The translations under genes were made by a program, and so were the position numbers. A DNA stretch of 64,000 nucleotides from Microcoleus vaginatus WJT46-NPBG5 (GTDB lineage Bacteria > Cyanobacteriota > Cyanobacteriia > Cyanobacteriales > Oscillatoriaceae), in contig JAHHHM010000007.1 in assembly GCA_019359355.1 (NCBI GenBank), positions 1 to 64,000 of the forward strand, given 5' to 3'. The first letter of the stretch is position 1; the number at the start of each line of letters is the position of its first letter. The notes beneath the pieces are model-generated. The model searched no databases, was not told the origin of the DNA, and worked only from the letters and a program-made list of their open reading frames with translations. Shown here one piece after another: positions 2,152-54,338 of this stretch.

Positions 2152-4269
2152 ATGACTAATCCAGTTAATTCAACCAATTCTTATCAAAACAATTTTCCCG
2201 GTGTGGGCGTCCCCGAAGAAAGCGTGGGTTTCATCTTACAACGGGGGGGAGATGAATTAGCGCTCGAAAAGGTCAGTGCTCGGTTCACTGTGCGCCCCGC
2301 CGGCACCGGCACCCTATCGGAGGATTGGGCACAACTTTGGGGGGCGGTTCGCCATAGGAGCGTGCCGCAAGCCAAGCTCGTAGAATACACCGTTGAACCG
2401 GCTCTCCTCGAACAAGCCATGCAAGCGGCGCGAAATTCAGAAGCCGTTGCCTTCGTCAGTCATGTTTACCACATCAAGAACAACCCAGAGCAACTGCTCT
2501 ACCTCACGGACGAGTTGACTATCCAGTTTAGCGATTCTGCCGATCCGGCAACGCGGGATGCCATCGCAGCGGCAGCGGGACTGCGTCAGATTCGTCTACT
2601 CGCGGGAATTGCCAACACCTTTATCTTTGAAGTCACCAAGCAAGCGACGGAAAATCCGATTAAAATTGCCAACCGGCTCACCGGCAACCGGGCGGTATTG
2701 GTTGCTGAACCGAACATTGTCGTAGAAACAGTTCCTCACTACCGGCCTCGTGACACCCTCTATCCCAAGCAATGGTATCTTTACCACGCCGGCGGCCCGG
2801 AATTAGCAGCCGGTGCTCATATTGATATTGAGAAAGCCTGGGATATCACTCGCGGCGCGCGTTCGGTCGTTGTGGCGGTTGCCGATGATTCAGTGGATCT
2901 CAACCATCCAGATTTTCAAGGCTTGGGTAAAATTGTTGCCCCCCGTGACTTTAAAGCCAAAGACTTTGTGCCGATGCCGGGGGAAGACGAAGATAACCAC
3001 GGCACCGCTTGTGCCGGCGTAGCAGTCGCGGAAGAAACCGGCAGCGGCATTGTAGGGGTTGCCCCCGGTTGTGCCTTGATGCCGTTACGCACTACAGGTT
3101 TTCTGGATGACAGTTCGATTGAGCAACTGTTTGAGTGGGCCATTGCCAAAGGGGCGGCGGTGATTTCTTGTAGCTGGGGTCCCTCTGCTGTTTATTTTCC
3201 CCTGTCCTTGCGTCAAAGCGCCGTTGTACATCGTGCCGCAACAGAAGGGCGCAACGGCAAAGGTTGCGTGATACTCTTTGCTGCCGGTAATGCCAACCGT
3301 CCTACAACCGGCACGATTAATGAACGCGGCTGGCCAAACAATATTTTGCAAGGCCAAACGAAATGGCTAGGCGGTTTTAGCGTTCACCCGGACGTGATGA
3401 CTATTTCTGCCTGCACCAGTTTGAACAAAAAAGCTGCCTACAGTAATTGGGGTCCCACCATCTCTGTTTGTGCCCCCAGCAATAATGCGCCCCCCGGAAT
3501 GTGGCTGCAAGAAACCGGCTATATCAACACAGCGCCGCAAGTGACCGTCTCTCTAGCCGGTCAAGGGGTTTTTACTGCCGATCGCATGGGTCCTCTCGGT
3601 TATGATGCGGAGGATTACACCGGCTATTTTGGCGGCACTTCTAGCTCTACCCCTGTGGTTGCCGGTGTTGCAGCTTTAGTGCTTTCTGTCAATCCTGATT
3701 TAACTGCTCAGGAAGTCAAGCAAATTCTGCAAAATACCGCAGATAAAATTACTGATAAAGAACCCGATCCGCAACTGGGTATCAACATGGGCACTTATGA
3801 CGCCAACGGACACTCCCAGTGGTTTGGCTATGGCAAAGTGAATGCTTTTAAGGCAGTACAGGCGGCACAAAAGCAAGTGACCTCCTTGAAAGTTTCCCGA
3901 CAGCTACAAGGGCGCAATGACACTAGCGTGGCGATTCCTGATTATAACTTGCGAGGTATTACCAGCCCTATCCAAATGAATGATACGGGTGCTGTGCGCG
4001 ATATTCGCGTCGGTGTAGATATTGAACACAGTTTTATGGGCGATCTGGAGATTTATTTAATCGCCCCTACCGGCAAGATCGTTTTGCTGCAAGGACGTAC
4101 CCAAGGGCGCAATAAGCGATTACAGATAGCGTATTCTCTGCAAACAACGCCAGTGCTGAAGCTGTTGATCAATCAGCCGGTAAAAGGTGTTTGGCAGTTG
4201 CGCGTTATTGACAGTGCCCTAGAAGACACCGGCAAATTGCTAAGCTGGGAATTAACTTTAGGCATCTAA
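2152..4269 (+). CDS. Subtilisin-like serine protease (peptidase S8) with C-terminal P domain
   Basis: The 705-residue protein carries the full S8 triad: Asp in VVVAVADDSVDLNHPDF (about residue 247), His in EDNHGTACAGVA (about 283) and Ser in GGTSSSTPVVAG (about 500). Residues 1-200 form a long N-terminal prodomain-like region without an evident signal peptide. The last ~130 residues match the proprotein-convertase P domain (DIRVGVDIEHSFMGDLEIYL; VKGVWQLRVIDSALEDTGKL). Cyanobacterial calcium-dependent and kexin-like proteases have this layout. The target is unknown. The gene stands alone, with a divergent neighbour upstream and a convergent one downstream. Confidence 0.92.
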   Translation: MTNPVNSTNSYQNNFPGVGVPEESVGFILQRGGDELALEKVSARFTVRPAGTGTLSEDWAQLWGAVRHRSVPQAKLVEYTVEPALLEQAMQAARNSEAVAFVSHVYHIKNNPEQLLYLTDELTIQFSDSADPATRDAIAAAAGLRQIRLLAGIANTFIFEVTKQATENPIKIANRLTGNRAVLVAEPNIVVETVPHYRPRDTLYPKQWYLYHAGGPELAAGAHIDIEKAWDITRGARSVVVAVADDSVDLNHPDFQGLGKIVAPRDFKAKDFVPMPGEDEDNHGTACAGVAVAEETGSGIVGVAPGCALMPLRTTGFLDDSSIEQLFEWAIAKGAAVISCSWGPSAVYFPLSLRQSAVVHRAATEGRNGKGCVILFAAGNANRPTTGTINERGWPNNILQGQTKWLGGFSVHPDVMTISACTSLNKKAAYSNWGPTISVCAPSNNAPPGMWLQETGYINTAPQVTVSLAGQGVFTADRMGPLGYDAEDYTGYFGGTSSSTPVVAGVAALVLSVNPDLTAQEVKQILQNTADKITDKEPDPQLGINMGTYDANGHSQWFGYGKVNAFKAVQAAQKQVTSLKVSRQLQGRNDTSVAIPDYNLRGITSPIQMNDTGAVRDIRVGVDIEHSFMGDLEIYLIAPTGKIVLLQGRTQGRNKRLQIAYSLQTTPVLKLLINQPVKGVWQLRVIDSALEDTGKLLSWELTLGI

Positions 4270-4542: not shown

Positions 4543-6285
4543 TTATAAACTCTTAATTTCTCGTCGGCTCACCCGATCTCTACCCATTTTTTTTGCCTCA
4601 TAAAGTGCCTCGTCGGCCATTTTAATCAAATCCAGCGGCAAAGCTTCAAAATCTGCAATCATGCTAGCTAGCCCACAACTGAGCGTAACATACTCACTCG
4701 TTTCGGAATTGATATGAGCGATTTGTAAAGCTTTAACTTGAGAGCGGATTTGCTGAGCCAATTCCCAAGCAACTTCCGAATTTGTATTAGGCAGAATCAC
4801 TACAAATTCTTCCCCACCATACCGGGCAATTAAATCTGTCGGGCGTACAGCTTCACTAAGCGTTTTAGCAATTTGTTGTAGACACCAATCACCGGCTTGA
4901 TGACCGTAAGTATCATTATAGATTTTAAAATAATCAACATCACATAAAATTAGAGAAAGCTCTTGTTTTTCCTGTGCAGATTGCCACCATTGTTTCTCTA
5001 TATATTCGTTAAAATAACGACGATTGGCAACCTGAGTCAAACCATCTAAGGAGGCTAAACGCTGCAATTTGTGATTGTAGTAACCGACAATCACAATCCC
5101 CGATGTAATTAAAGCAACAATGGGTGCAACCACAGGAATCCACCAACCGCTCAAGAAAGCAAGATAACTGACACCAATTGGAGTAACTGCCACCCCGATT
5201 ACTGCCCCAATATTCCAGACAGGAACTACTTTTTTTCTCAAGGAATTTTGCTGTAGCAATCCCCAACTGCTTAGCGCGCCGGCAAAAGACCAAATCCCAA
5301 TCCACATCCACTCTACTCCATCCGGCCAGAATCGGATCAGGCTACGTCCTTCTAGGGCAGCACTTAAAATTTGGCTGGTTAAATTCGCGTGAATAAAAAC
5401 CCCTGGTGTGCGACTAGGGCTGCCGGTAAAACTGTTATCATAAGGAGTCAAAAAAAGGTCATTAAAACTTTGGCCGGTTGCGCCAATTAAAACAATGCGA
5501 CCTCGCAAACGATTGGATTGTATCTGATTTTCTAATACCTCTTTTAAGGATAACGTCTCGAAGTTTTCTCGCGTTCCCCGATAGTTCAGCAAAATTTGAT
5601 AACCACCGGCATCAAGACCAACATAGCCTCCCTCATTGCCTTTTAAGGGCACAAATAAAGCTTTTCCTAACTTTAAGTTCATCTTGCCGGCATCCACCAT
5701 TTCTAAGCGAATGCCCTTTTCTTTCAGATAAATCAGCGCTAAGCGCACCGCCAAGGCTAATTGCGAAGGTTCTTTTTCACTCGGCTTCACTGACAGCAAA
5801 CCCCGCCGCACTTTGCCATCTGCATCTAACACTAAATCGGCTAAACCCACTTGATCTTGTTGCTTTAAAATGGGGGATGGGGCTACAGTTTCGCCCACCA
5901 CTTTCTCAACGCCAATTAGATTTGGGGTAGATTTAAATATTTCTACTAATGCCTGATGCCCTGGTTCTACCGGCAAATTGCGATACAGATCCATGCCAAT
6001 CGCCAAGGGCTGCTGTCTTTTCAGATTTTCGATCAATTTAGCCAGCACAGCATCAGACATCGGCCATTGTCCGAGTTCATTGATATCTGACTCGTTAATC
6101 GTCACAACTACGATACGCGAGTCTGCTACTTCTCGGGGACGCCAGCGAAAAAAAGCATCAAGCGTCGCCCATTCTAGAAGCTGGAAGCAGCCCAAAGAGT
6201 TAGCAATGATCACTAATCCTGCTACAGGGACTGCAATCAGTATTTCTTTGCACTGCCCGATTCCTTTTCCAATCTGTTTCCACAT
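4543..6285 (-). CDS. CHASE2-domain diguanylate cyclase (membrane-bound)
   Basis: This 580-residue sensor starts with a transmembrane helix (about residues 12-33). An extracytoplasmic CHASE2 domain follows (about 34-330, with VVVTINESDINELGQWP), then two or three further transmembrane helices (about 335-420) and a GGDEF domain with the active motif YGGEEF. The second part of the domain begins at LASLDGLTQVANRRYF. An intact GGEEF suggests cyclic di-GMP synthesis in response to an unknown external signal. The CHASE2 half is highly similar to the next gene upstream, so the two arose by duplication. No EAL domain is present. Confidence 0.93.
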   Translation of the reverse strand: MWKQIGKGIGQCKEILIAVPVAGLVIIANSLGCFQLLEWATLDAFFRWRPREVADSRIVVVTINESDINELGQWPMSDAVLAKLIENLKRQQPLAIGMDLYRNLPVEPGHQALVEIFKSTPNLIGVEKVVGETVAPSPILKQQDQVGLADLVLDADGKVRRGLLSVKPSEKEPSQLALAVRLALIYLKEKGIRLEMVDAGKMNLKLGKALFVPLKGNEGGYVGLDAGGYQILLNYRGTRENFETLSLKEVLENQIQSNRLRGRIVLIGATGQSFNDLFLTPYDNSFTGSPSRTPGVFIHANLTSQILSAALEGRSLIRFWPDGVEWMWIGIWSFAGALSSWGLLQQNSLRKKVVPVWNIGAVIGVAVTPIGVSYLAFLSGWWIPVVAPIVALITSGIVIVGYYNHKLQRLASLDGLTQVANRRYFNEYIEKQWWQSAQEKQELSLILCDVDYFKIYNDTYGHQAGDWCLQQIAKTLSEAVRPTDLIARYGGEEFVVILPNTNSEVAWELAQQIRSQVKALQIAHINSETSEYVTLSCGLASMIADFEALPLDLIKMADEALYEAKKMGRDRVSRREIKSL

Positions 6286-9350: not shown

Positions 9351-10118
9351 TTACAGAAATGGCTGAGATGCAATTGCCTCCAAACCCACGGATGTTAACA
9401 ATTTCTTCCAGCTATCTGCGAGATTGACATCTGCTGGTTGGGATTTTCTCAGCTCGCCTAGAGTGCTGATCGTATCTATCCAAATGCCAGCTTTTCCATA
9501 CAGAGCGGCACGTTCTAGAGGGCTGGCATTGGCTAACTGGTTCTTAAGAGCTGCATCTGCTGCAATTCGTTTGATGCTTCCTTGGACGACGGGGCTATCT
9601 GGTCTGAGTCCTTGTTCGCCAACGATGATAAAAGCCCACTGATAATTTTTGCCAATTTCTAAGGCCGGCGCATTATCTGGGAGTTGGAAACTCAGAATTC
9701 CAGAATTGCCGGCAATGGGGACTTTGGTTTGGTAAATATGTTGATTATTTTCATCGACCAAACTAAAAAATACTTGTTTAGCCGAGGTTTCGGGAACGTA
9801 AACCAAAAACACAGGACGTTCTGCCACAGTTAGCCCTTCTTGAGTCGTCGGCATGAGCGGCTTGACACAAGAACTTTGCGCTGCTAACTCTTGAGAGCAT
9901 TGGCCGCCGTCTCTAGACGCTCCCCCTGCAGTATCTTTGGGCTTTCCGGGTCCAGGAGGATCAAACGTGATGCGGAGAACTGAAGCGTCAGGGAAACCCG
10001 CTACTTGGCTCGTCTGAGCTTTAGCCGATGGTTGCAGCCCAGGTATGGTGGCCATTGCCAGGAATAGGCCGGTGGATAAGATCGCGATGGGTAAAGGTTT
10101 CTTTTGTTTAGACTTCAT
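9351..10118 (-). CDS. DUF928 family secreted protein
   Basis: The 255-residue protein has a signal peptide (MKSKQKK, a hydrophobic core, cleavage near AKAQ) and the DUF928 pattern: ITFDPPGPGKPKDTAGGASR near residue 50, then PTTQEGLTVAERPVFLVYVP, with a C-terminal helical part containing NLADSWKKLL. The role of the family is unknown. It is recurrently found beside CHAT and haemagglutinin-type genes in cyanobacteria, as here. A good ribosome site (AGAGGT) precedes the ATG. It is the last gene of the leftward array and lies just past the remnant of a second CHAT gene. Confidence 0.9.
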   Translation of the reverse strand: MKSKQKKPLPIAILSTGLFLAMATIPGLQPSAKAQTSQVAGFPDASVLRITFDPPGPGKPKDTAGGASRDGGQCSQELAAQSSCVKPLMPTTQEGLTVAERPVFLVYVPETSAKQVFFSLVDENNQHIYQTKVPIAGNSGILSFQLPDNAPALEIGKNYQWAFIIVGEQGLRPDSPVVQGSIKRIAADAALKNQLANASPLERAALYGKAGIWIDTISTLGELRKSQPADVNLADSWKKLLTSVGLEAIASQPFL

Positions 10119-10190
10119 GGTGTTACCTCTTAGGGTTTGTTGTTTAAGTAGTCTCTGCTAGCACTCTTTTATAAGATTGTAAATCTTACG

Positions 10191-10356
10191 CGAGAAATAA
10201 TTTAAAGATTTATGGAATGATTTTAGCGCCAATTCCCGATTAAAACAAAAGGTGATCAGTAAAAAGAACGTTCAGACTCAGTTCTTTCTACAAAGTAAGC
10301 TGCGCTTGACGCAGAGCTTCAGCTTTGGATACACCAGATTGGTGAGTAGTCGAGAA
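10191..10356 (-). pseudogene. Remnant of a duplicated CHAT gene 3' end
   Basis: This stretch is a degenerate copy of the 3' end of the neighbouring CHAT gene and its downstream flank (about 10402-10575). Shared blocks include TTTATGGAATGATTTTA versus TTTATGGAATGATCTTA, and an identical TTTGGATACACCAGATTGG. Translated on the minus strand it gives QSGVSKAEALRQAQLTL, then an in-frame stop. The parent reads QSGVSKAEALRQAQLSLLKN. It is therefore a dead fragment, showing that a second CHAT gene once stood between the present one and the DUF928 gene. Confidence 0.85.
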
Positions 10357-10431
10357 AAGCTCGTCCTATAAACATTTTTATAGTTTTGTCAATACCTACA
10401 AAGAAATAATTTACAAATTTATGGAATGATC

Positions 10432-13140
10432 TTACTGCCAATTCCCGACCAGAATAAAAGGTGCCCAGTAAAAAGGATGCCGAGATCCAGGGTTCTTCAG
10501 TAAACTTAGTTGAGCTTGACGCAAAGCTTCTGCTTTGGATACACCAGATTGGGTGATCTTTCGGTAAAACTCACTCATTAGTTCAGCCGTGGATTCGTCT
10601 TTAACTGACCACAGGGTGGCTAGCGTACTACCGGCCCCTGATCGAACAGCCACTCCCGCCAACCCCAACGCCGCGCGTTTATCACCGGCAGCGGTTTGAC
10701 AAGCACTCAAGATCAGTAATTCGATGGGAACGCGTTCTTGTTGTTCTCTTGATCGCACCAAGCTTTCAAACTCTTTAACTTTGATTTTTTCATTCCAAGT
10801 CAAAATAAACGTCTCGTCAGAGTTAGAGCTAAACTGCCCATGAGTCGCTAAGTGAAGAACCGGATAATTCTTTGCAGTGAGCTGTTTTTGCAAGTTGGCT
10901 ACCGTAAAATCTTGATTTAAAAAAACCCTGGCCGGCACCGCAGACGAAATCTGCTGCACTTCCAACTGAACCCCCGGCAGCGCTGAAAAGCCTTGACGCG
11001 CCTCAGACAAGCCGCCGGTTAAAACCTTAATTTCCTCTTTTTGCAAAGACTGTGTTTCTAGCAGTTGCAGTCCGGGCGCGAGGGCAACACTATATTTCTC
11101 CACGAGATACTGCTTGCCATCAAAGAGGGCAGCCATTGGCAGATTTCGCAAAACCCCATCTAGCACAAACACCAGAGTTTTAATTTCACTTTGAGCTAAC
11201 TGCTTTTCTGCCGGCTCGATCAACCAAGTATAAACTTGTTGAGAAAGGCGTAACCGATCTTGATCGGCAAAAAATGGATTTAAAGATTCCAGAAACTGCC
11301 CCAAAATACTTTCCACTTCATTTTGAGGTAAAGCCGTCGCATAATTTCTTAAAGGCTGTCCCGGTAGTGAGAGAATCACTTCTAAGCGATCAGGCAAAAT
11401 AATAGGATAAATAACCGCAGCGGTTGGATCAAGCTGATCGATTTGCTGAGGCTTAACATCCAAACAAGCTTCCCGGAAAAAGTTATCTAATTCTGCCACT
11501 TGCAAAGCTTCAATCACTTCACGAGCTTGTATGAGATTTTGCTGACTCGGATTGGATTTCAAGAGCAAACTGACTAACTGCCGGTAAACAGGTTCAACAC
11601 TTTCATTAAAAGAAAACTGAACATCAGGATTAATCGCGGCTAAGTCAGTACGAAGTGATTGCAGCGTATTGACTGCTTCGGTATAAGCGGAGATCGCACC
11701 AAAAGTATCGCCTTGTTGTGTCAAAATTCGGCCTAGCTGTCCTTGCCAACGAGCCACAATATAATCAGCACTACTCGCTTGAGCCAGTACAAGGGCTTGC
11801 TCTGTCAAGCTTCTAGCTTCTTTCCACTGTGTGGAACCTTCATATAAATGTCCCAGTTGACCGAGGGCGTAAGATTGCGCTTTTGAGTCTCCCAGCATCT
11901 TCGCCTGAGCCACAGCTTTTGCTAGGGTTTGAGCGATTTGTTGGGCAAGGCTTCGCCAACCTAAAGGTAGGGGGATGGGGGATTGGGCAGTGTTTGAGTT
12001 CGATTTGCTATGCCCTGTATCCCATTTCATTAAACTTTCAGCGAAATTAACTTGAGCGTAAACACTCGCTCTGCTAGGGGGTATATTATTCAGTTGTGAT
12101 TCAATTTGGGATAACAAAGATTGAGCCTCTGACCAGTTTTTTGTCTCTAGAAGTAGACTTAATTGATTGAGCTGAGCTTCTACTTTTGTGAGGGGATGGG
12201 TAGCATTTTCAGTCGCTTTTTGATAACTTTGCAGGGCTTGCTCAGTCTGTTGCAAAGCTCTATAACTATTTCCCAGGCTCAAGAGGGTGGCACTAATCTC
12301 AGTTGGGGAATTGAGTTGTTGGGCAATGGCTAAACTTTGCGCTAATACTTCTTGAGATTTGCCCACATCTCCCACCACTTGCAAGGTGTCGCCCAAACTA
12401 CGCAATCCTGTTATTTTGATTAAGGAATCCGGTTCGGCTTGCAATTTTTGGTTGATTCGCTCTAAGGTTGTTTGTGCCCGTCGGTATAGTCCGAGGGTTT
12501 GCATGGCTTGGGCTTGGTTAATTTGGCTGCCGAGGATGCCGGCGCGATCTCCAATTTCTGTATAGGCTTTTTCTGCCTGTTTCCAGCTCTCTAGAGCGGC
12601 TTCAGTTTGGCCGGTGGCTAGAAGTAAACTGCCGTGTGTATTGAGGGCTTGGGCCAGAACTTGTGTATGACCTTTCGTCCTTTGTTTATTGCCGGCAAGT
12701 AAGTTAAGACTTTGGGTAATTGTTGTTTGCGCCGGCTCCCATTGTCCTAATTCTTGATACGCAATTGATAAATAGTTTAAACTGACCGCTTGATTAAGCT
12801 GATCACCCTGATTTTCATAATCTTTAACGGACTCTTCCCAGACAGCCGCTGCTTCAGAAAATCGTCCGGCGTCGTAGAGATTTCTGCCTTCTTCTAGAAG
12901 ATTGATTGATTGTGTTTTGGGTGAGATTCCGGCATCCCCTTGAGCAGCTAAAATCTCTACTTGTTCACGATTATTAGAGCGTAATGGAAACTCTAAACTC
13001 AAAAATTTAGAATCCGCAGGCTGTGCGGCAATACTCGGCAACATGAATGTCACCACAAAGAAAGTGAGTAATCCTAACCCAATACTGGCAGGAATCGCTC
13101 TCAAAATTTTCCAGAACTTGCCTATTATTCGCTTAATCAT
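10432..13140 (-). CDS. Secreted or membrane-anchored TPR-CHAT protein
   Basis: This 902-residue protein begins with a basic segment and a hydrophobic helix (about residues 15-40, ending SIAAQ), consistent with export. TPR repeats fill about residues 75-500. A C-terminal CHAT domain (about 600-900) keeps the caspase-like dyad: His in LHLATHGQFSSN and Cys in LLILSACQTAAGDK. CHAT domains belong to the caspase-like clan CD peptidases; the substrate here is unknown. Its start codon overlaps the stop region of the upstream exoprotein gene (ATGATTAA), indicating coupled translation. It may process or regulate the exoproteins of the array, which is inference from context. Confidence 0.92.
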   Translation of the reverse strand: MIKRIIGKFWKILRAIPASIGLGLLTFFVVTFMLPSIAAQPADSKFLSLEFPLRSNNREQVEILAAQGDAGISPKTQSINLLEEGRNLYDAGRFSEAAAVWEESVKDYENQGDQLNQAVSLNYLSIAYQELGQWEPAQTTITQSLNLLAGNKQRTKGHTQVLAQALNTHGSLLLATGQTEAALESWKQAEKAYTEIGDRAGILGSQINQAQAMQTLGLYRRAQTTLERINQKLQAEPDSLIKITGLRSLGDTLQVVGDVGKSQEVLAQSLAIAQQLNSPTEISATLLSLGNSYRALQQTEQALQSYQKATENATHPLTKVEAQLNQLSLLLETKNWSEAQSLLSQIESQLNNIPPSRASVYAQVNFAESLMKWDTGHSKSNSNTAQSPIPLPLGWRSLAQQIAQTLAKAVAQAKMLGDSKAQSYALGQLGHLYEGSTQWKEARSLTEQALVLAQASSADYIVARWQGQLGRILTQQGDTFGAISAYTEAVNTLQSLRTDLAAINPDVQFSFNESVEPVYRQLVSLLLKSNPSQQNLIQAREVIEALQVAELDNFFREACLDVKPQQIDQLDPTAAVIYPIILPDRLEVILSLPGQPLRNYATALPQNEVESILGQFLESLNPFFADQDRLRLSQQVYTWLIEPAEKQLAQSEIKTLVFVLDGVLRNLPMAALFDGKQYLVEKYSVALAPGLQLLETQSLQKEEIKVLTGGLSEARQGFSALPGVQLEVQQISSAVPARVFLNQDFTVANLQKQLTAKNYPVLHLATHGQFSSNSDETFILTWNEKIKVKEFESLVRSREQQERVPIELLILSACQTAAGDKRAALGLAGVAVRSGAGSTLATLWSVKDESTAELMSEFYRKITQSGVSKAEALRQAQLSLLKNPGSRHPFYWAPFILVGNWQ

Positions 13141-16114
13141 TGCAGTTTGCCGGCTGATTCCAAGAACTAGAAAGAGTCACATTCGGAGCGGTTGCCACCA
13201 GTTCAACGTGTCCTTTGGCATTGACTGTCCATCCAGTGGCCTCAACCAGTGGGGATGGGGGGTTGGGAACCGAGGCATTTGTGAGACTGCCTTGCTCCCT
13301 CGCTTCCCCTCTTGCGAACTCTGCTACCGGGCGCAGATCGCGCCACACTGCTTTACCTACAAGGGTTTGAGTTGGCTCGGAAGGTAAGCCGCCGCGTCCA
13401 GTAATTGTGAAGCTGTTGCCTTGTTGGCGGCAACCGGCAGATATCTGAGTGGTGGGATCGGTTGGGCGCGCCGGCAGCTCGATTACCCCAGAAGTAGGGT
13501 CAACATTGGGGGTAATAATTTCCACGGTGCCGGTAAACTGGGGGCCAAAATTAGAGGTGGCGGTGATATCACTTTGGGGGGTAAGTGCATCGCGAAACTG
13601 AATGCCAAAAATGCCTTGGGCGATAATGCTAACTCTGCCGCCAAATCCGGCTTGGGCGTTAGCAGTAATATCACTATTTTCTAAAGCAACCAAGGTCTTG
13701 GTACCAACGGTGATGTTACCGCCATCCGTACTGCCGGCATCGGTTGTAATTCGGCTGCCTTGGCGCAATTGTATGTCTTGGGTGCGAATTTGAATGTTAC
13801 CACCGGCCCCCATTGCTGTGGCGGCGTTGAGTGTGCCTTGTCTCTCTAGGCGAACGGACTGAGCGTTAATATCGAGCGTTCCCGCATTGCCGGTTGCGAA
13901 ACTCCGCACATCCAGGGCTGCCCCATCGCGCACGATGACTGAACGGGCGTTAATTTGCAAATCTCCGCCTGCCCCTGTTACCGAACGGGGGTTAATTTGC
14001 AAATCTTCTCCTGCCAATGCGCCAAGCTGCAACAAGTCTGCCCGTCCCGACGAGGTGACTAAGGTAGCGGGAAGGCCGGTTATTGCTGCTGTGCCGGCCA
14101 ACTCTAGTAACTCGGACGCATTAATCGTAATTTTTCCCCCGTTTCCAGAACCCAATGTTGCGCTTGAGACAATCGCGCCGTCGGAGATTTTTATAGTCGG
14201 GCTGTTCATAGTAAGGTTGCCGGCGGGCGAAGCGGTGAACGTGGTGGTGCCAGGGCCGCTGGTGATGCGCCCATCCGCAGAAACGCCGTTAATTTCCATA
14301 GATTCGCTGGCATTAATCACCACATTACCCCCCGGCCCGCCAGTGGTGATGATGCCGGTGCCGATCACCCCGCCGCTATTGGCGACAATTAGCCCACCGG
14401 CTCGATTGACGACTCTTTTTGTGTCGATCTTAATGTCGCCGCCTGCGCCAGTGCCGAAAAAGCTAGTATTTGTAATGCCTGTGGATAGCAGGGCACCCGG
14501 TATCGTTGTTGAAACCTCCACCGATTCAGAAGCTTTGACAATCACATCTCCAGCCGATCCACTGCCGATGGTGGCGCTAGAAAGGATTGCCCCGTCCCGG
14601 ATTGTGAGGGTGCCGGTGTTGACCGTGACGTTGCCGGTGGAACCGCTACTTCCTGGGCCGGGTGCTGTGAGAATGCCAGAGGCGACGAGATTAACAGAAC
14701 TGGCAGCCTGAATGTCAATTTTTCCGCTATCACCTTGTGCTTTTGCCGGACTGAACATCAGCGCACCATTTTGCATCATCAGCGAGTTCGTCTCAATCGC
14801 CATATTCCCGCCGGTGCCGGTGCCACTGGCGATGGAAAACAAGCCGCTAATCCGATCTTCTCTTGGGCGAAACTGCCCCAATATAGCGGCACCGATGAGC
14901 AGTTCCATCGTGTCAAATCCTGTGCCTACGAACACGGCTGAATCTGTAGCCCGCAAGGTCAAATTTCCGCCGGTGCCGCTATCGTATGTGCTGGTTGATA
15001 AGAAGGCGGTTCCTTGAAGTTGGAAATTGCCGGTTTCTACCGTCAGGTTGCCGCCGGCACCGGCACCTGCGGTATCGCTCGATAAGCTGGTAAATGCAAG
15101 GGGGTTGCTACCGGCCATCTGCACGGTTTGGCTGGCGCGAACGGTTAAATCTCCCCCTTTGCCGGCACCCAATGTTGTTGTAGATATGGAGGAATCGAGT
15201 AAATTAAATTGCCCTGCTTGAATCTCGATATCTCTGCCATTTTGATCGCCCAGCGTGTCGGAAACTACGCTTGATCCTTCTCGAATATTCACGGTTTCGC
15301 CCCGCATCCCAATCGCACCGCCGCCTGCCCCGCTGGTGTTTACCGTCGCACCGGCAGCGAGATCGATAGTGCCGAACTCGGTGATGCCGGTGTATCCGAA
15401 GTTCCAGCCGGTGACAGTTGGAGTCAGGCTAACAGTCTCCGGACTTTGTACCGCACCCAGATGCACTTCGCCCCCGCTTGCGGTTGCACTGCCGCCAGAG
15501 AAGATTACATCTCCCCCAATTAGGGCTAAGGTTTGGCCGGTTTTGACTTCTAAGCCTCTTTCATTTAAGCGAGATTGATTGACAATTGCCCCCGAATTGG
15601 TGCCAAATTGCAAACCAATCGGTACGTTAATGCTTAAAAGAGGTGAGGATTGCGGATTTTTTGCGGAAAAAAGATTCCCGTCTGCAAATTGGATGCTGTC
15701 GGCTGTGGTGCCGGCGAAGGAACCCCCAATATTTAAACGCGCATTTCGCCCAAAAATAATGCCATTGGGATTGATTAAAAATAAATTGGCGGTTCCGTTG
15801 GCGCTAACTATGCCATCTATATTGGAAATGTTGCTGCCGGTGACGCGCGTGAAAATGTTTTGAATATTGGCAGAATTGTTAAAAAATGCTTCGATATTTG
15901 TCGGCAAAGAAAATTCTTTAAAGCTATGAAAAAGATTGCTGCCGGCTTGGGTTCCCCCGTCAATCTGAATTTTATTGCCGGCTGGACTAACTTCTGTATT
16001 GTTCGGCAGCGTTGCATCTGGGACGAGTTGCGCTTGAGCAATGCCGGTAAGAGAACAAAAACTAAGGACAAACCCAACTATCCAGGCAGGGTGATACTGG
16101 AAAAGACGATACAT
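13133..16114 (-). CDS. Haemagglutinin-type (TPS-domain) exoprotein 1
   Basis: The 993-residue protein has a signal peptide ending in AQAQ, then a TPS secretion domain (about residues 30-280) with the hallmark NANLFLINPNGIIFG-type motif (here TANLFLINPNGIIFG) and IGGSFAGTTADSIQFADG. A long beta-helix-like region of repeated NLTV and GNV motifs follows. The C-terminal block contains GCRQQGNSFTITGRGGLPSEPTQ and ends in QPANCND. It should be exported by a TpsB-type pore to the cell surface, but no such gene is nearby. It is the third gene of the leftward array and overlaps the CHAT gene by 8 bases. Confidence 0.92.
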   Translation of the reverse strand: MYRLFQYHPAWIVGFVLSFCSLTGIAQAQLVPDATLPNNTEVSPAGNKIQIDGGTQAGSNLFHSFKEFSLPTNIEAFFNNSANIQNIFTRVTGSNISNIDGIVSANGTANLFLINPNGIIFGRNARLNIGGSFAGTTADSIQFADGNLFSAKNPQSSPLLSINVPIGLQFGTNSGAIVNQSRLNERGLEVKTGQTLALIGGDVIFSGGSATASGGEVHLGAVQSPETVSLTPTVTGWNFGYTGITEFGTIDLAAGATVNTSGAGGGAIGMRGETVNIREGSSVVSDTLGDQNGRDIEIQAGQFNLLDSSISTTTLGAGKGGDLTVRASQTVQMAGSNPLAFTSLSSDTAGAGAGGNLTVETGNFQLQGTAFLSTSTYDSGTGGNLTLRATDSAVFVGTGFDTMELLIGAAILGQFRPREDRISGLFSIASGTGTGGNMAIETNSLMMQNGALMFSPAKAQGDSGKIDIQAASSVNLVASGILTAPGPGSSGSTGNVTVNTGTLTIRDGAILSSATIGSGSAGDVIVKASESVEVSTTIPGALLSTGITNTSFFGTGAGGDIKIDTKRVVNRAGGLIVANSGGVIGTGIITTGGPGGNVVINASESMEINGVSADGRITSGPGTTTFTASPAGNLTMNSPTIKISDGAIVSSATLGSGNGGKITINASELLELAGTAAITGLPATLVTSSGRADLLQLGALAGEDLQINPRSVTGAGGDLQINARSVIVRDGAALDVRSFATGNAGTLDINAQSVRLERQGTLNAATAMGAGGNIQIRTQDIQLRQGSRITTDAGSTDGGNITVGTKTLVALENSDITANAQAGFGGRVSIIAQGIFGIQFRDALTPQSDITATSNFGPQFTGTVEIITPNVDPTSGVIELPARPTDPTTQISAGCRQQGNSFTITGRGGLPSEPTQTLVGKAVWRDLRPVAEFARGEAREQGSLTNASVPNPPSPLVEATGWTVNAKGHVELVATAPNVTLSSSWNQPANCND

Positions 16115-16178
16115 AAATTCTTTAATACTATCTAAAAAATTCAGCAGCGCACCCGATAACCTGACGCTTATAATTAAA

Positions 16179-18491
16179 TTAATTATGGCACGAAGTCAGC
16201 GAATGCCAAGATTTATAAAAACTTACATTAGCAGCTTTAGCCACTAATTCAACCTGTCCTTTGGCATTGATTGTCCATCCAGTTGCCTCAACCAGTGGGT
16301 ATGGAGGATTGGAGACTAATACATCTGTGATATTTGTCCTTTCTCCAACTGCCCCTCTTCCCAGATTTTCAACCGGGCGTAAATCTCGCCACACTGCTGT
16401 TCCTATAAGTGTTTGAGTTGGATCGGAGGGTAAGCCGCCGCGTCCGGTGAGGGTAAATTCACTGTTAGAAGCGATACAGCCGGTGGAAATTTGAGTGCTC
16501 GGATCGGCGAGATTTTCTTGTAACTGAACTAAGCCAGAGGCGGGATCAACATCGGGGGTATTGATTTGTACAATGCCGGTGAATTGTGCGCCGAGTTGGG
16601 AAGTGGCAGTGATATCGCTTTTAAGGGTTTGTGTTGGGCGAAATTCTGCGCCAAAAATGCCGGTGGCGTTGATAGTAACTCCTCCCCCAAAACCTGTTTC
16701 TGCATTGGCACTAATGTCGCTATTTTCGAGGGCAACTAAGTTATCCGTTTTGATCGCAATATTACCGCCATTCACTTCTTCGGCATTGGTGGGAATTTCT
16801 TGTCCAGAATCGCTAACAATTGTACTGCTGGCATTGGTTGTAATCAGGCTTTCACGACGCATTTTTAAGTTTTGAGCGCGAATTCTAATATTACCTTGCT
16901 GGCCGGCTCGTCGGGTGGCGGTAATCAGCGATTCGTTATTGAGTTCAATAGTATTAGCATTAAGTTCAATATTGCCGGCTTCTCCTGTTCCTAAACTTGC
17001 TCCATTAATCGTTGCCCCATCGCTGAGGCTTAAGGTATTGGCTGTTACGGAAACTGTGCCGGCATCTCCCGTTAATGTTGTCGCATTATTTAGAGTTGTC
17101 CGTGCATACAATCCACTGCGAATTTGACCGTTTATAGATCGACCTCGAATCGCTACTTGATCGGCTTGAATATTAATATTGCCACCTTGGCCGGCACCAA
17201 AGGTTGAGACGGAAATTACTGCTCCATTTTCTACGGTAAGTTGCTCAGTCGCAATGGTAATATTCGCTCCATTTCCTGTTGAAGTTGGCCACGGATTCGA
17301 CTGAATCGCAGTTAAACTTCCCCCATTCGCTGACAGTCCTCCCAGGCTGACTTGTCTGGCATGAAGGTTAATATTACCCGCATTGCCGGCGGCATCTGTA
17401 CCCGAAAGTAGCCCGCTACTATCTCTCAGCATCAATTGATTCGTGTTAATGCTTAATTCGCCTCCACTCCCGCTTGCTTTTGTCCAAGAAATAATGCTAC
17501 TGGGAAACTTTCCATCCGGAGTTCTGCCAATTAATTCGATTGACTCGGATATATTAAAGGTTAAATTTTTACCTAATTTTGCTCCTTCGTTAATGGAAAA
17601 GATGACTGAACCATTTTCCACCGTCAGTCGTCGCGCTTGAAATTGAAGCAAGCCGGCTGGATCGCCGCTGGTATCGACTGAAGCCGATTGAATTAAGCGA
17701 ATATCCTTAAATTGGGCAGATGTTTCAGGGGTTAAGGTGATTTGAGAAGCATTAGAATTAATGGCAACTTCGCCCCTCGATAAAGCGAGTAAATTAATCG
17801 TGCCGGCGGGGGCGATTAAATTTCCACCTTCTAAATGAATATTTCCCCCAACTAAGGCTAAGGTTTGACCGGCTTTTACACTTAAAGAGGTCGTTGGGGC
17901 TTCTCGTTCTAATCCAGTTTCTAAACTAAAACTTAAAGAGCGACCGGCACCTTGAACAACAATATCTCCTGAATTTTCACCCAGTTGCAACCCAATGGGT
18001 ATATTAACAGTTAATAAAGGAGGAGCTTGCGGATTAACCGCGCTGAAAAAAGTACCGCCGGCAAATTGAATACTATTAGCAGTTGTTCCAATAAAAGACC
18101 CACCCAGATCAAGCTTAGCATTTCGGCCAAAAATCATGCCATTGGGATTGAGCAGAAATAAATTAGCCGTTCCGTTGGCTCGAATTAATCCGTCAATGTT
18201 GGATACTTTGCTGCCGGTAACTCGGCTGAAAATATTTTGAATCGTAGAGGGATTGTTAAAGACAGCTTCGCTATTTGTCGGAACAGAAAATTCACGGAAG
18301 CTGTGAAATAAATTGTTGCCGGCTTGGGTTCCGCCTTCAATTTGGATTGTATTGCCGGCAGCATTAACGTTGCTGTTATTCGGCAGCGTTGTATCTGGAA
18401 TAATTTGAGCGCTAACAGTGCTAGTGGCTATCAAGCTCAAATAGACAGCACTGCTAATGATTGAGGCTGGCAAAGCCTGGTATTTATACAT
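16179..18491 (-). CDS. Haemagglutinin-type (TPS-domain) exoprotein 2
   Basis: This 770-residue paralogue of the flanking genes has a signal peptide (cleavage near TVSAQ), the TPS domain with NLFLLNPNGMIFGRNAKLD, and a beta-helix body of NITI and NIEL repeats. The shared C-terminal block reads STGCIASNSEFTLTGRGG, and the protein ends in SLTSCHN. It is shorter than its neighbours because the central repeat region is smaller. Export and surface exposure are inferred from the family; adhesion or biofilm roles are possible but not shown by the sequence. Confidence 0.92.
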   Translation of the reverse strand: MYKYQALPASIISSAVYLSLIATSTVSAQIIPDTTLPNNSNVNAAGNTIQIEGGTQAGNNLFHSFREFSVPTNSEAVFNNPSTIQNIFSRVTGSKVSNIDGLIRANGTANLFLLNPNGMIFGRNAKLDLGGSFIGTTANSIQFAGGTFFSAVNPQAPPLLTVNIPIGLQLGENSGDIVVQGAGRSLSFSLETGLEREAPTTSLSVKAGQTLALVGGNIHLEGGNLIAPAGTINLLALSRGEVAINSNASQITLTPETSAQFKDIRLIQSASVDTSGDPAGLLQFQARRLTVENGSVIFSINEGAKLGKNLTFNISESIELIGRTPDGKFPSSIISWTKASGSGGELSINTNQLMLRDSSGLLSGTDAAGNAGNINLHARQVSLGGLSANGGSLTAIQSNPWPTSTGNGANITIATEQLTVENGAVISVSTFGAGQGGNINIQADQVAIRGRSINGQIRSGLYARTTLNNATTLTGDAGTVSVTANTLSLSDGATINGASLGTGEAGNIELNANTIELNNESLITATRRAGQQGNIRIRAQNLKMRRESLITTNASSTIVSDSGQEIPTNAEEVNGGNIAIKTDNLVALENSDISANAETGFGGGVTINATGIFGAEFRPTQTLKSDITATSQLGAQFTGIVQINTPDVDPASGLVQLQENLADPSTQISTGCIASNSEFTLTGRGGLPSDPTQTLIGTAVWRDLRPVENLGRGAVGERTNITDVLVSNPPYPLVEATGWTINAKGQVELVAKAANVSFYKSWHSLTSCHN

Positions 18492-18560
18492 AAAATCCTG
18501 CCTTCTTAAGAGAATTAATAAATTTTTAATTCACTTGACACCCTCGTTTAGAAGAGTCAC

Positions 18561-21215
18561 TCAATTGTTACAACCAATCGGCTGATTCCAAGAATTAGAA
18601 AAAGTGAGATTGGGAGCTTTTGCTACCAACTGCATCTGACCTTGATTATTGATAATCCATCCAGTTGCTTCAATAATTGGGGGGTGGGGGTTGGCCACTG
18701 AAAATTCGGAAATCTCCCTCTCGCCTACAATCTGCCCAGCAGTCTCTAGGGGACGCAAATCCTGCCAACGCGCTGTTCCTCTGAGAGTTTGAGTCGGATC
18801 AGCCGGCAAACCGCCGCGTCCGGTAGCGGTGAAGCTACTGCCCCTCGCTGCTGTACAACCGGCAGCAATTTTCGTGTTAGAGTCAACCGGCTTTTCGGCT
18901 AACTCAACCACACCTGAAGCCGGATCGACATCGGGGGTATTCAGTTGAACCGTGCCGCTAAACTGTGCGCCAAGGCTGGAAGTGGCAGTGATATCACTTT
19001 TTACAGTAAGTGTTGGTCGAAATTCTGCGCCAAAAATGCCTTGGGCATTAATAATAACCTGACCCCCAAAACTGCCGGTGGCATTGGCAGTGATATCGCT
19101 ATTTCCCAAGGCAGCCAAGGTATCGGCATTGATGGTAATATTGCCGCCGGTGGCGCTGCCGGTGGCATTGGTGGTAATGTGGCTACCGCGTTGTAGTTGG
19201 ATATCAGAGGCGGTGAGGGTCATGTTTCCTTGATTTCCTTGGGCGGCAGCAGCGCTGAGTGTTCCTCGATCAAGGCGAATCTGGCCGGCATTCAGATTGA
19301 GGTTGCCGGCACCCCCGGTTTGATTGGAACTAACGGAGACTTGCGCCCCATTGCTAACGATCAGCCGCTGTGTCTCAAGCGTTAAGTTGCCGGCATCTCC
19401 AGTTCCCTGAGAACTTGCGAATAACCCACTGGGAAAGCGTTGTCCTGACTCATCGCGGAAAAAATCGCGCTTGATGGGAGGAACTGCCGGCACTGATCCG
19501 CTGAGTTCAATCGACTCAGACGCTTTAATATTCAGGTTTCCCCCCGCACGACTGCCTAAAGTGCCGGTGGCGATCTGTCCCCCATCCCGAACAATTAGCC
19601 TTGCGGTTTCTAGGGTTAAGTCGCCGCCTAAACCGTCAAGCGTGGTGTCAGCCGATAACGTGCTGGGACTTCCCAAAACTGAAGTGCCGGCAATTTCCAC
19701 AATATTTGCTCGCACGTCCACTTCACCGGCATTGCCAAAACTTAAGCTTTCAACGCCTACCCGTGCGCCATTAGTGATTCGCAGGCTTTCGGCTTCGATG
19801 GTGAGTTTACCGCCGTTGCCGGTTGCCCCCGGTTCGACAGACGCGGCTAAAACGCTGGCAAATATTCCCGACTCTGAAGTGCCGGTGATTTCAATTTCTC
19901 TAGCTTTTACCGTCATTTGGGCGGCATCCCCGCCACCTAGGGTAAAGGTTAAAACTTGTGCGCCATCTGTTACTAACAAGCGATCCGCTTGAATAATTAA
20001 GTTTCCGCCCTGACCTGTGGCTCCTGTATACACAGAAGTTTCTACTACGCTGCCGGCCAGAAATTCCACTAGATTTGCTTGGATCGTTAACGTGCCGGCG
20101 TTGCCCGCTCCAAAGGTATCTGCTCCAATAATCGCGCCATCTGCAACGCTCAAATGTGGGGTTTCGATCAGCAAGTTGCCGCCATTGCCGGTAGCACCGG
20201 GATCGACGCTGGCAAAGAGACTACTGGAAAAAGCACCGGGAATACTGGTTAATTCAACGGATTCGGTAGCGCGGACAATCAGGCTGCCTCCGGGTTGGTC
20301 GCCCAAGGTATCGGCTAAAATAGCTGAACCTTCACTCAGTGTAATGCGCCGGCCCATGAGTTGAACATCGCCGCCGCCGGTGCCACTACTACTAACGGAA
20401 GCCGCTTGAGCAAGACGGATATCTTGAAAATTTTGAATATCTGGATACTGAAGCGTCCAGCCTGAATTCGTGGGTGTGAGGGTGACTGTTCCACCAACAA
20501 CACTTCCCAGTTCAATTCGCCCAGATTCTGCGGTTAAATTGCCGCCCACCAGTGTAATATTACCGCCAACCAAGGCTAAGGTGTTGCCGGCGTTCACTTG
20601 AAGTCCTGCCGGTCTATCTTCTCGAAGGGTTGCTAAAGTTACTGGATCGAATGCGAGTTGATTTCCTGGCCCTTCGACTTGAATTCCGCTTGGATTTGGC
20701 CCTAATTGTAAGCCAATCGGGACATTCACGGTCAATATCGGTGGGGCAGTAGGATTAACCGCGCTGAATTCGCCCCCGCCGGCAAACTGGATACTGTTCG
20801 CCGTTGTACCCATAAAAGAACCCCCGATATTTAACCGGGCATTGGGGCCAAAAAGGATGCCATTTGGATTGAGCAAAAAAAGATTAGCGGTTCCGTTGGC
20901 GCGAATTAACCCATCAATGTTAGAAATTGTGCTGCCGGTGACGCGACTGAAGATGTTTTGAATATCGGCTGCATTGTTGAAGAATGCTTCGGTATTTGTC
21001 GGAACAGAAAATTCTCGGAAACTGTGGAATAAACTGCTGCCGGCTTGGGTTCCGCCTTCAATCTGGATGACATTGCCGGCTGGCGTGACCGTTGTATTAC
21101 GTGGCAGCGTTGTATCTGGGGTAATTTGAGCGCTGGCGGTGCCGGTGAAATTGAAGCTACAACAGATCCCACAGCCAATTACCCAGGCTACGTGAACTGG
21201 ATTTTTTAACATCAT
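18561..21215 (-). CDS. Haemagglutinin-type (TPS-domain) exoprotein 3
   Basis: The 884-residue protein is the first gene of the leftward array. A signal peptide (ending GTASAQ) leads into a TPS domain with NLFLLNPNGILFGPNARLN, then a repetitive beta-helix with strongly periodic motifs such as GNGGNLLIE and GNAGTLTIQ. The same C-terminal signature as the other two copies is present (AGCTAARGSSFTATGRGGLP; final QPIGCNN). The three copies differ mostly in the repetitive middle, as expected for tandem duplicates diverging by repeat gain and loss. The array promoter should lie upstream of 21215. Confidence 0.92.
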   Translation of the reverse strand: MMLKNPVHVAWVIGCGICCSFNFTGTASAQITPDTTLPRNTTVTPAGNVIQIEGGTQAGSSLFHSFREFSVPTNTEAFFNNAADIQNIFSRVTGSTISNIDGLIRANGTANLFLLNPNGILFGPNARLNIGGSFMGTTANSIQFAGGGEFSAVNPTAPPILTVNVPIGLQLGPNPSGIQVEGPGNQLAFDPVTLATLREDRPAGLQVNAGNTLALVGGNITLVGGNLTAESGRIELGSVVGGTVTLTPTNSGWTLQYPDIQNFQDIRLAQAASVSSSGTGGGDVQLMGRRITLSEGSAILADTLGDQPGGSLIVRATESVELTSIPGAFSSSLFASVDPGATGNGGNLLIETPHLSVADGAIIGADTFGAGNAGTLTIQANLVEFLAGSVVETSVYTGATGQGGNLIIQADRLLVTDGAQVLTFTLGGGDAAQMTVKAREIEITGTSESGIFASVLAASVEPGATGNGGKLTIEAESLRITNGARVGVESLSFGNAGEVDVRANIVEIAGTSVLGSPSTLSADTTLDGLGGDLTLETARLIVRDGGQIATGTLGSRAGGNLNIKASESIELSGSVPAVPPIKRDFFRDESGQRFPSGLFASSQGTGDAGNLTLETQRLIVSNGAQVSVSSNQTGGAGNLNLNAGQIRLDRGTLSAAAAQGNQGNMTLTASDIQLQRGSHITTNATGSATGGNITINADTLAALGNSDITANATGSFGGQVIINAQGIFGAEFRPTLTVKSDITATSSLGAQFSGTVQLNTPDVDPASGVVELAEKPVDSNTKIAAGCTAARGSSFTATGRGGLPADPTQTLRGTARWQDLRPLETAGQIVGEREISEFSVANPHPPIIEATGWIINNQGQMQLVAKAPNLTFSNSWNQPIGCNN

Positions 21216-54049: not shown

Positions 54050-54338
54050 CTCAATTTCCCTCGTTTCATACAAGCCGGCTCACTCTCATTATGCTTTAAC
54101 AGGCCAATGACAATACAACGCGTTAATCATACCCAATCCGGTTCCAATAGGGTTCATACAAAGCCAAAGATATTGCGTTCTCCCAGAAGAGATGAGAGAA
54201 GAATACAAAATCTCATGGCACCGGGCTTTGGCGCGATTACACCAATGACTATTTGTGAAGAAGTTGAAAAGATTTTTACATAACCTCCCCAACATGGGAG
54301 ATATATGTAAACAGTTCACTAACCCATTGATTGAGACT

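Follow-up and report, generated by a model that had tools for sequence, protein, structure and literature searches.

The window analysed here is a stretch of 64,000 nucleotides from the cyanobacterium Microcoleus vaginatus WJT46-NPBG5 (host genome of 6.46 Mb in 44 contigs), and its minus strand carries an array of three exoproteins of the two-partner secretion (TPS) type, a protein that joins tetratricopeptide repeats to a caspase-like CHAT domain (TPR-CHAT), and a DUF928 protein. An original prediction, made from the letters of the window, had placed these five open reading frames (ORFs) together on one strand, and their coordinates and Pfam domains agree with it: all matches exceed the curated cut-offs, for the TPS domain (PF05860; 239.5, 230.3 and 235.6 bits, with TIGR01901 also above its cut-off in all three exoproteins), for CHAT (218 bits, accompanied by TPR) and for DUF928 (206.2 bits). 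That prediction stopped short of two CHASE2 sensor genes, one with a cyclase and one with a GGDEF domain, which lie downstream of DUF928 on the same strand and extend the unit leftward to position 4543, and it gave DUF928 no role. The array is real and is one case of a recurrent cyanobacterial gene system. Because CHASE2 genes are present, the system looks like surface-protein control coupled to signalling and not only, as had been proposed, like secretion and processing, a description that suits the exoprotein-CHAT pairing but misses the CHASE2 half.

Table 1. Genes and features of the array, with the kind of evidence for each
Feature	Position	Strand	Evidence
TPS exoprotein 3, 884 aa; TPS domain, beta-helix and Cys-pair tail	18561-21215	-	Pfam
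C-terminal tail of exoprotein 3 (Cys787, Cys882)	18564-18935	-	conservation
TPS exoprotein 2, 770 aa	16179-18491	-	Pfam, AlphaFold model, Foldseek
C-terminal tail of exoprotein 2 (Cys672, GRGGLP 683-688, Cys768)	16182-16553	-	conservation, model
TPS exoprotein 1, 993 aa; stop overlaps CHAT start	13133-16114	-	Pfam
C-terminal tail of exoprotein 1 (Cys895, Cys991)	13136-13507	-	conservation
TPR-CHAT protein, clade A, 902 aa; signal-like N-terminus	10432-13140	-	Pfam, tree
CHAT domain with His767 and Cys814	10441-11250	-	Pfam, alignment
DUF928 protein, 255 aa; predicted Ig-like plus helical; signal-like N-terminus by eye	9351-10118	-	Pfam, model
CHASE2-PAS-adenylate/guanylate cyclase, 849 aa	6622-9171	-	Pfam
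CHASE2-GGDEF, 580 aa; likely paralogous second sensor	4543-6285	-	Pfam

The exoprotein tail and the clade-A CHAT

Identity among the three exoproteins is 54-58% in the C-terminal tail, 63-80% in the last turns of the beta-helix and 58-65% in the TPS domain, against 33-38% in the middle of the helix, in keeping with the shared C-terminal block that had been noticed at the outset. The ending Cys-Asn-x, which had been ascribed to all three, is present in two (CND and CNN), the third ending in CHN; as a motif it was rejected, in that across relatives only the Cys is kept and the residues after it vary. The alignment of 111 tails, which by its nature covers only proteins with the block, shows one Cys in 100% of the sequences, the terminal Cys in 99% and the GRGG positions in 84-99%. 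All 93 uncut tail-bearing exoproteins have exactly two tail cysteines, and 83 of them are free of Cys from the TPS domain to the tail. Two cysteines near the C-terminal end of a protein that has few others are the pattern of the HMW1/HxuA anchor; and since the C terminus of HMW1 and HxuA, closed by a disulfide, is described as remaining within the pore (PMC5422565), a retention role for the tail is plausible. By the same analogy, its two cysteines are probably joined by a disulfide, and the tail would lie in the periplasm.

The AlphaFold model of exoprotein 2, based on the 27 sequences of alignment A3 (the three window exoproteins and 24 survey exoproteins of 700-1000 aa), has a mean pLDDT of 78.1; it consists of a beta-helix over residues ~30-645, mostly confident, beside which residues 647-770 fall below 50, i.e., the tail is predicted to be disordered. 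Foldseek places HxuA, HMW1 and EtpA as the best matches to this model (E below 1e-4), with FHA weaker.

In a tree of 169 distinct CHAT domains, 118 group with the window protein (clade A) and 12 form its sister clade F, the node that joins the two having a local support of 0.97 (midpoint rooting was uninformative, and the tree was re-rooted on distant TPR-CHAT). The intact His/Cys dyad reported for the window protein is indeed there (His767, Cys814), and it is intact in 118 of 118 clade-A members, in 12 of 12 clade-F members and in all 39 of the other aligned CHATs, so that its retention is a family trait. Conservation in all 118 fits catalysis, and on its sequence the protein is probably a protease. 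It is probably exported as well: a signal-like N-terminus, by a hydrophobic-stretch heuristic, is found in 111 of the 116 clade-A CHATs that are not cut at their start, a count that favors the export originally predicted and is tempered by the 19 of 21 unrelated TPR-CHATs that pass the same heuristic.

The host genome has 31 CHAT, 13 TPS and 8 DUF928 matches. Only three of its CHATs belong to clade A by the linker profile A7, from which it follows that most CHATs have other partners, and the tail profile finds seven tails. (A regular-expression motif for clade A, DVQFSF-like, was insensitive, recovering 73 of 118, and was replaced by A7.) Two close clade-A paralogues in this genome (loci L010 and L013) both stand beside tail-bearing exoproteins. 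Where locus L009 ends and L013 starts, two contigs (C8 and C9) break inside similar tail-bearing exoprotein repeats, and the two loci are probably one split array of the order CHASE2-DUF928-TPS-TPS-CHAT.

Two identities that had been considered were set aside. Csx29 was rejected, the model NF041237 scoring 18.7 bits against a cut-off of 300. Anti-phage defence was not adopted: PADLOC matched the CHAT protein with a generic TPR model and, weakly over one stretch, with BovA; it returned nothing on DUF928 and the three exoproteins, and on the cyclase it gave several Pycsar-cyclase models, which were not counted as defence because the cyclase domain alone was covered. A second TPR-CHAT of another clade lies elsewhere in the window (54255-57029, plus strand, 924 aa), with no TPS, DUF928 or CHASE2 gene adjoining it there. 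Near the array, on the opposite strand, is a subtilase with a C-terminal proprotein-convertase P domain (2152-4269), and long ORFs run antisense to the exoproteins (e.g., 13887-14711, plus strand), which are probably by-products of repetitive coding sequence.

Co-occurrence, adjacency and fusion across genomes

The original prediction had proposed tabulating the co-occurrence of CHAT, DUF928 and TPS genes. Across 126 genomes, using profile A7 for the clade-A linker and profile A5 for the tail, the two agree in 123 (both in 65, neither in 58), with clade-A CHAT only in two genomes and tail only in one, and the three discordant assemblies have 1230, 350 and 300 contigs. Copy numbers of tail and clade-A CHAT are likewise correlated (rho 0.90, or 0.85 once genome size is ranked out). 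Because at least eight families (f6, f17, f18, f23, f24, f28, f30 and f31) hold both states, with both searches agreeing within them, the pattern is not the history of a single clade; these presence/absence statistics carry no formal phylogenetic correction. Alignments A5, A6 and A7 hold 22 of 23, 24 of 25 and 21 of 25 chosen pieces, some of which come from genomes that were then searched and match by construction.

Proximity was counted in 24 genomes among the matches listed, namely 99 of the 104 for the tail and the top 130 for CHAT. Of these 99 tails, 49 have an unfused clade-A-like CHAT no more than 10 kb away, compared with 1.8 expected if genes are placed uniformly, the assumption behind all expected values given here. 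Viewed from the other side, the 64 unfused clade-A-like CHATs have within 10 kb a tail in 41 cases, a TPS gene in 34, DUF928 in 29 and CHASE2 in 27, and at least one of the four in 49. Tails were found in 17 of the 24 genomes, DUF928 in 20, and CHASE2 and CHAT in general in 22 each; since these last three are broader than tails, tail and clade-A CHAT appear as a near-obligate pair, with DUF928 and CHASE2 as a shared arm.

A survey anchored on CHAT, covering the best 80 of 513 confirmed relatives, gives a similar picture. All but two of the loci are labelled cyanobacterial (78 of 80), and the two labelled Gracilibacteria (L057 and L077) were taken as mis-binning. TPS or tail genes occur in 44 loci, DUF928 in 58, CHASE2 in 57 and TpsB in 4; 68 have at least one of the first three and 33 have all three. 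For the 45 loci flanked by 6 kb or more on each side, the corresponding numbers are 28, 37, 37 and 3, with 40 having any and 25 all. In 29 of the 80, the first annotated gene upstream is a TPS or tail ORF on the same strand and at most 1 kb away. In the window, the ATG of the CHAT gene overlaps the stop of exoprotein 1 by 8 nt, as had been pointed out, though a conserved overlap, and with it translational coupling, was rejected: the gaps in relatives range from -52 to 835 bases. Two further families recur in these loci, one with a median length of 477 aa in 10 of 80 (including L057:5240-6673) and one that is ABC-permease-like (named by eye) in 19 of 80.

To this we add a neighbour-blind sample of 40 CHAT and 40 TPS places taken from the family searches, the former hand-picked down the ranking and denser at its lower end, the latter from among the best-scoring rows, and classified with profiles built from the fetched loci themselves. 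Judged by eye, separate TPS or tail genes occur in 8 of 10 clade-A regions, compared with 2 of the 23 around other CHATs (seven further anchors being clade F), and a clade-A CHAT occurs in 22 of the 40 TPS regions, in one of them solely as a fusion (L186). A TpsB gene stands between or beside the exoprotein and the CHAT in eight loci (L143, L152, L155, L166, L171, L185, L187 and L188) and directly before the CHAT in another (L096). Within the window cluster no TpsB gene was found, and the expectation that the pore is encoded elsewhere is borne out by two ShlB/FhaC-type genes (ShlB/POTRA_2) on other contigs of the host (L019 and L020).

These neighbourhoods might also reflect no more than the usual grouping of envelope genes in gene-rich cyanobacteria, their products not interacting directly, given that all the families are multi-copy in large genomes, the host included. 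This we regard as very improbable, in that proximity is about 9 to 48 fold above expectation, presence and absence agree in nearly every genome, the copy-number correlation survives genome size, and the genes fuse.

The fusions bear on what the tail does. Judged from coordinates and open-frame lengths, 36 single ORFs, in 17 of the 24 genomes, join TPS to CHAT. Among the 152 TPS matches listed, 80 have the tail without a CHAT, 34 are CHAT-fused without the tail, two have both and 36 have neither; the tail is thus present in 80 of 116 unfused TPS proteins and absent from 34 of 36 fusions. This near-exclusiveness suggests that the tail serves to recruit the CHAT to the exoprotein. Nine of the 12 members of clade F are TPS-CHAT fusions. 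Two clade-A proteins of other genomes run TPS-tail-TPR-CHAT in one ORF, one of 1640 aa with GRGGLP kept (L186) and one of 1339 aa with a shortened tail (L176), and an unrelated CHAT is likewise fused to TPS in L117. The host genome itself has three ORFs combining TPS and CHAT (L015:4943-15691, 3582 aa; L016:7265-13729, 2154 aa; L017:7167-11330, 1387 aa).

Because of genome co-occurrence, copy-number correlation, adjacency and natural fusion, we conclude that the tail and the clade-A CHAT are almost certainly functionally paired. The original idea that the CHAT protein matures, releases or polices the exoproteins is in this respect strongly supported; the cutting that it implies we infer by analogy, and we lean, if only slightly, towards the tail being the CHAT substrate. 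The CHAT would then be a dedicated extracytoplasmic partner of the tail, presumably in the periplasm.

Two other roles for the CHAT protein would accommodate the pairing. TPR domains bind extended peptides. Since the tail is predicted to be disordered, and since tail and fused CHAT are nearly exclusive, the CHAT might have no proteolytic role and serve as a scaffold or export chaperone, keeping the exoprotein tail at the outer membrane; we consider this improbable in view of the dyad kept throughout clades A and F, an argument that is softened by its presence in the 39 other CHATs. Alternatively, a TPS stick with a C-terminal enzymatic domain, as in the single-ORF fusions, could be a contact-dependent toxin that delivers the protease into neighbouring cells in the manner of CdiA. 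The CHAT end is strongly conserved and not swapped (39 invariant columns among 24 sequences), and where the CHAT is unfused it recurs next to CHASE2, DUF928 and TPS, no search having been aimed at immunity genes; we give a toxin hardly any credence.

DUF928 and the CHASE2 sensors

The strongest measured association of DUF928 is with CHASE2. Counting the best 141 of 146 DUF928, 150 of 193 CHASE2 and 152 of 166 TPS matches, so that all numbers are lower bounds, at least 67 of 141 DUF928 genes lie within 3 kb of CHASE2 (1.4 expected), at least 41 within 10 kb of TPS (4.7 expected), and at least 31, in 13 genomes, have both within 10 kb. An earlier report mentions, for one cyanobacterium, CHASE2 and DUF928 as neighbours together with WD40 genes (PMC5587647). 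The CHASE2 domain is kept in all 53 proteins scanned (that of the window and 52 of 56 from the survey, alignment A4) with outputs that vary: HATPase_c in 26, cyclase in 18, GGDEF in 3 and CHAT in 2. In the host genome, a 971-aa protein combining CHAT, cyclase and CHASE2 (L014:13473-16388) adjoins a DUF928 and a TPS gene, and is a second, non-orthologous form of the array.

The DUF928 model has a mean pLDDT of 81.7 (at least 82 in each ten-residue block from residue 81 on) and predicts an Ig-like fold plus helices. Its best structural match is the C-terminal domain of MtxA (Z 9.9, with 150 residues aligned at rmsd 4.2; the next matches have Z of 8.0 or less), and among the 50 matches listed this is the one whose alignment extends to the C terminus. 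A DUF928 profile (alignment A2, the window protein and 54 of 56 from the survey) found no sequence match among PDB chains at E up to 10. According to the report on mtxA, the gene is followed by one with similarity to adenylate cyclase and CHASE2, and MtxA has a signal peptide (PMC4439547). Fold, as modelled, and gene context agree for DUF928 and MtxA, and a common family is possible.

These observations can also be read as a relay from the outside in, with the exoprotein as a surface sensor: contact or damage would lead the TPR-CHAT to cleave DUF928 or the CHASE2 ectodomain, changing a second messenger or phosphorylation, so that the exoprotein is the trigger and not the substrate. The logic would be that of Csx29, a TPR-CHAT protein described as cutting Csx30, a sigma factor inhibitor (PMC10028731). 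In favor of such a relay are the constancy of CHASE2 while outputs vary, the closeness of DUF928 to CHASE2 and its resemblance to MtxA, which also sits next to a CHASE2-cyclase gene, and the CHAT-cyclase-CHASE2 fusion of L014. Against it, the tightest coupling of the CHAT is to the exoprotein tail and not to DUF928 or CHASE2, which are present in 20 and 22 of the 24 genomes, compared with 17 for tails. On this evidence we judge the relay rather unlikely.

Proposed mechanism and known systems

The reading that we prefer, that the array is a system for controlling surface proteins, we hold to be somewhat more probable than not in the following form. The three exoproteins would be exported through a TpsB pore encoded elsewhere; the tail, flexible and probably closed by its only two conserved cysteines, would stay at or inside the outer membrane, as in HMW1 and HxuA, and there serve as the docking site, and probably the cutting site, of the co-encoded, exported TPR-CHAT, a predicted cysteine protease of the caspase fold. 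If the tail were cut, the surface beta-helix would be released or matured; if uncut, it would be held on the cell. Secreted DUF928 would couple this event in the envelope to the periplasmic face of the CHASE2 sensors, whose cytoplasmic outputs vary among histidine kinase, cyclase and GGDEF, and the signal might run either way, the sensor controlling the protease or the cleavage informing the sensor. Control through DUF928 and CHASE2 is a tentative part of this scheme.

Several observations weigh against the scheme. Of the 80 clade-A loci, only 44 have TPS or tail genes within the stretch surveyed, and 12 have none of TPS/tail, DUF928 and CHASE2, which short contigs explain in some cases, yet 5 of the 45 well-flanked loci lack them as well; a more distant clade-A member of the host genome (L012) likewise has none of these in its 19-kb stretch. 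Among the matches listed for the 24 genomes, 15 of 64 clade-A-like CHATs have none of the four partners within 10 kb, DUF928 and CHASE2 are near only 29 and 27 of them, and for 50 of 99 tails no clade-A-like CHAT is that close, so the pairing is often in trans; 36 of 152 TPS proteins have neither tail nor fused CHAT (contig ends truncate some of them). Some genomes with neither tail nor clade-A CHAT still have DUF928 and CHASE2 (G013, G014 and G016), and other CHAT clades are found in the same kind of array (L125, L122 and the host's L014). One of the nine clade-F fusions (L119) does contain a GRGG string. The Cys loop of the tail spans 66-157 residues, much longer than in type V proteins, whose pair is described as ‘few residues apart’ (PMC8151025), and the model of exoprotein and tail was built on only 27 sequences. 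Finally, the match of DUF928 to MtxA, though first, is moderate by Foldseek (E 1.9e-5, TM 0.36/0.49), and deletion of mtxA is reported to give no phenotype under standard conditions (PMC4439547).

The co-occurrence of tail and CHAT, often beside a sensor and a secreted companion, suggests a so far undescribed switch by which surface proteins would be held, cut or sensed. Its full version, a previously undescribed and cyanobacteria-wide adhesin switch in which a caspase-fold protease acts on a Cys-looped TPS tail and is coupled through DUF928, as a periplasmic adaptor of the MtxA type, to CHASE2, is possible rather than probable. Literature searches on the CHAT domain with DUF928, with two-partner secretion and cyanobacteria, with filamentous hemagglutinin or with CHASE2 found nothing, subscription papers being mostly uncovered, so that this is no proof of absence; DUF928 by itself led only to the report on WD40 proteins cited above, and those on the CHAT domain or on two-partner secretion and hemagglutinin in cyanobacteria returned, by title and the start of the abstract, none on this pairing.

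Cyanobacterial genomes often encode dozens of CHATs (31 here), and one clade of these is now tied to a concrete partner motif, with a bearing on the attachment, aggregation and dispersal of filamentous and mat-forming cyanobacteria. If the scheme is true, signalling by cyclic nucleotides, c-di-GMP or a phosphorelay would either control surface attachment or be informed of it, and functions would follow for DUF928, for CHASE2, whose sensors would gain a ligand side, and for one clade of the cyanobacterial CHAT expansion. DUF928 and the orphan MtxA of magnetotactic bacteria may share a role as periplasmic partners of CHASE2.

Each component resembles something known and departs from it. In its TPS domain, beta-helix and C-terminal Cys pair, the exoprotein is like HMW1 and HxuA, but its cysteines stand 66-157 residues apart with GRGGLP between them, and it has a CHAT partner in nearly every genome. 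The CHAT protein shares TPR and a CHAT domain with a His/Cys dyad with Csx29 of the type III-E CRISPR craspase; unlike that protein, it has a signal-like N-terminus, and it scores far below the Csx29 cut-off. DUF928 recalls MtxA of Magnetospirillum in its putative signal peptide, its predicted Ig-like plus helical fold and a nearby CHASE2-cyclase gene, although its profile has no sequence match to any PDB chain. A dedicated protease for exoprotein maturation has a parallel in FHA and SphB1 of Bordetella, the latter described as an autotransporter of the subtilisin kind whose gene lies apart from the fhaB-fhaC locus (PMC5422565).

The overall working would be most like that of CdrA, LapG and LapD in Pseudomonas, where LapG is described as cutting the periplasmic C-terminal tail of the TPS adhesin CdrA at low c-di-GMP, leading to its release (PMC5422565, PMC4694147). 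Both would combine a TPS adhesin released by a cut in its periplasmic C-terminal tail, a separate periplasmic cysteine protease (here predicted) and an inner-membrane receptor that has a periplasmic part and is tied to a second messenger. The Pfam scan of nine window proteins gave no LapG- or LapD-type domain, LapG not having been searched for in the rest of the genome. In the array, the putative protease has a CHAT caspase fold with TPR in place of the transglutaminase-like LapG, the sensor is CHASE2 and not the c-di-GMP receptor LapD, DUF928 is an additional component, and cleavage is presumed. Because neither the protease nor the sensor is related to its Pseudomonas counterpart, we claim likeness and not membership; if the scheme is correct, it would extend the regulated release of two-partner adhesins to a new class of protease, with a CHAT-based system as the non-homologous counterpart of LapG and LapD.

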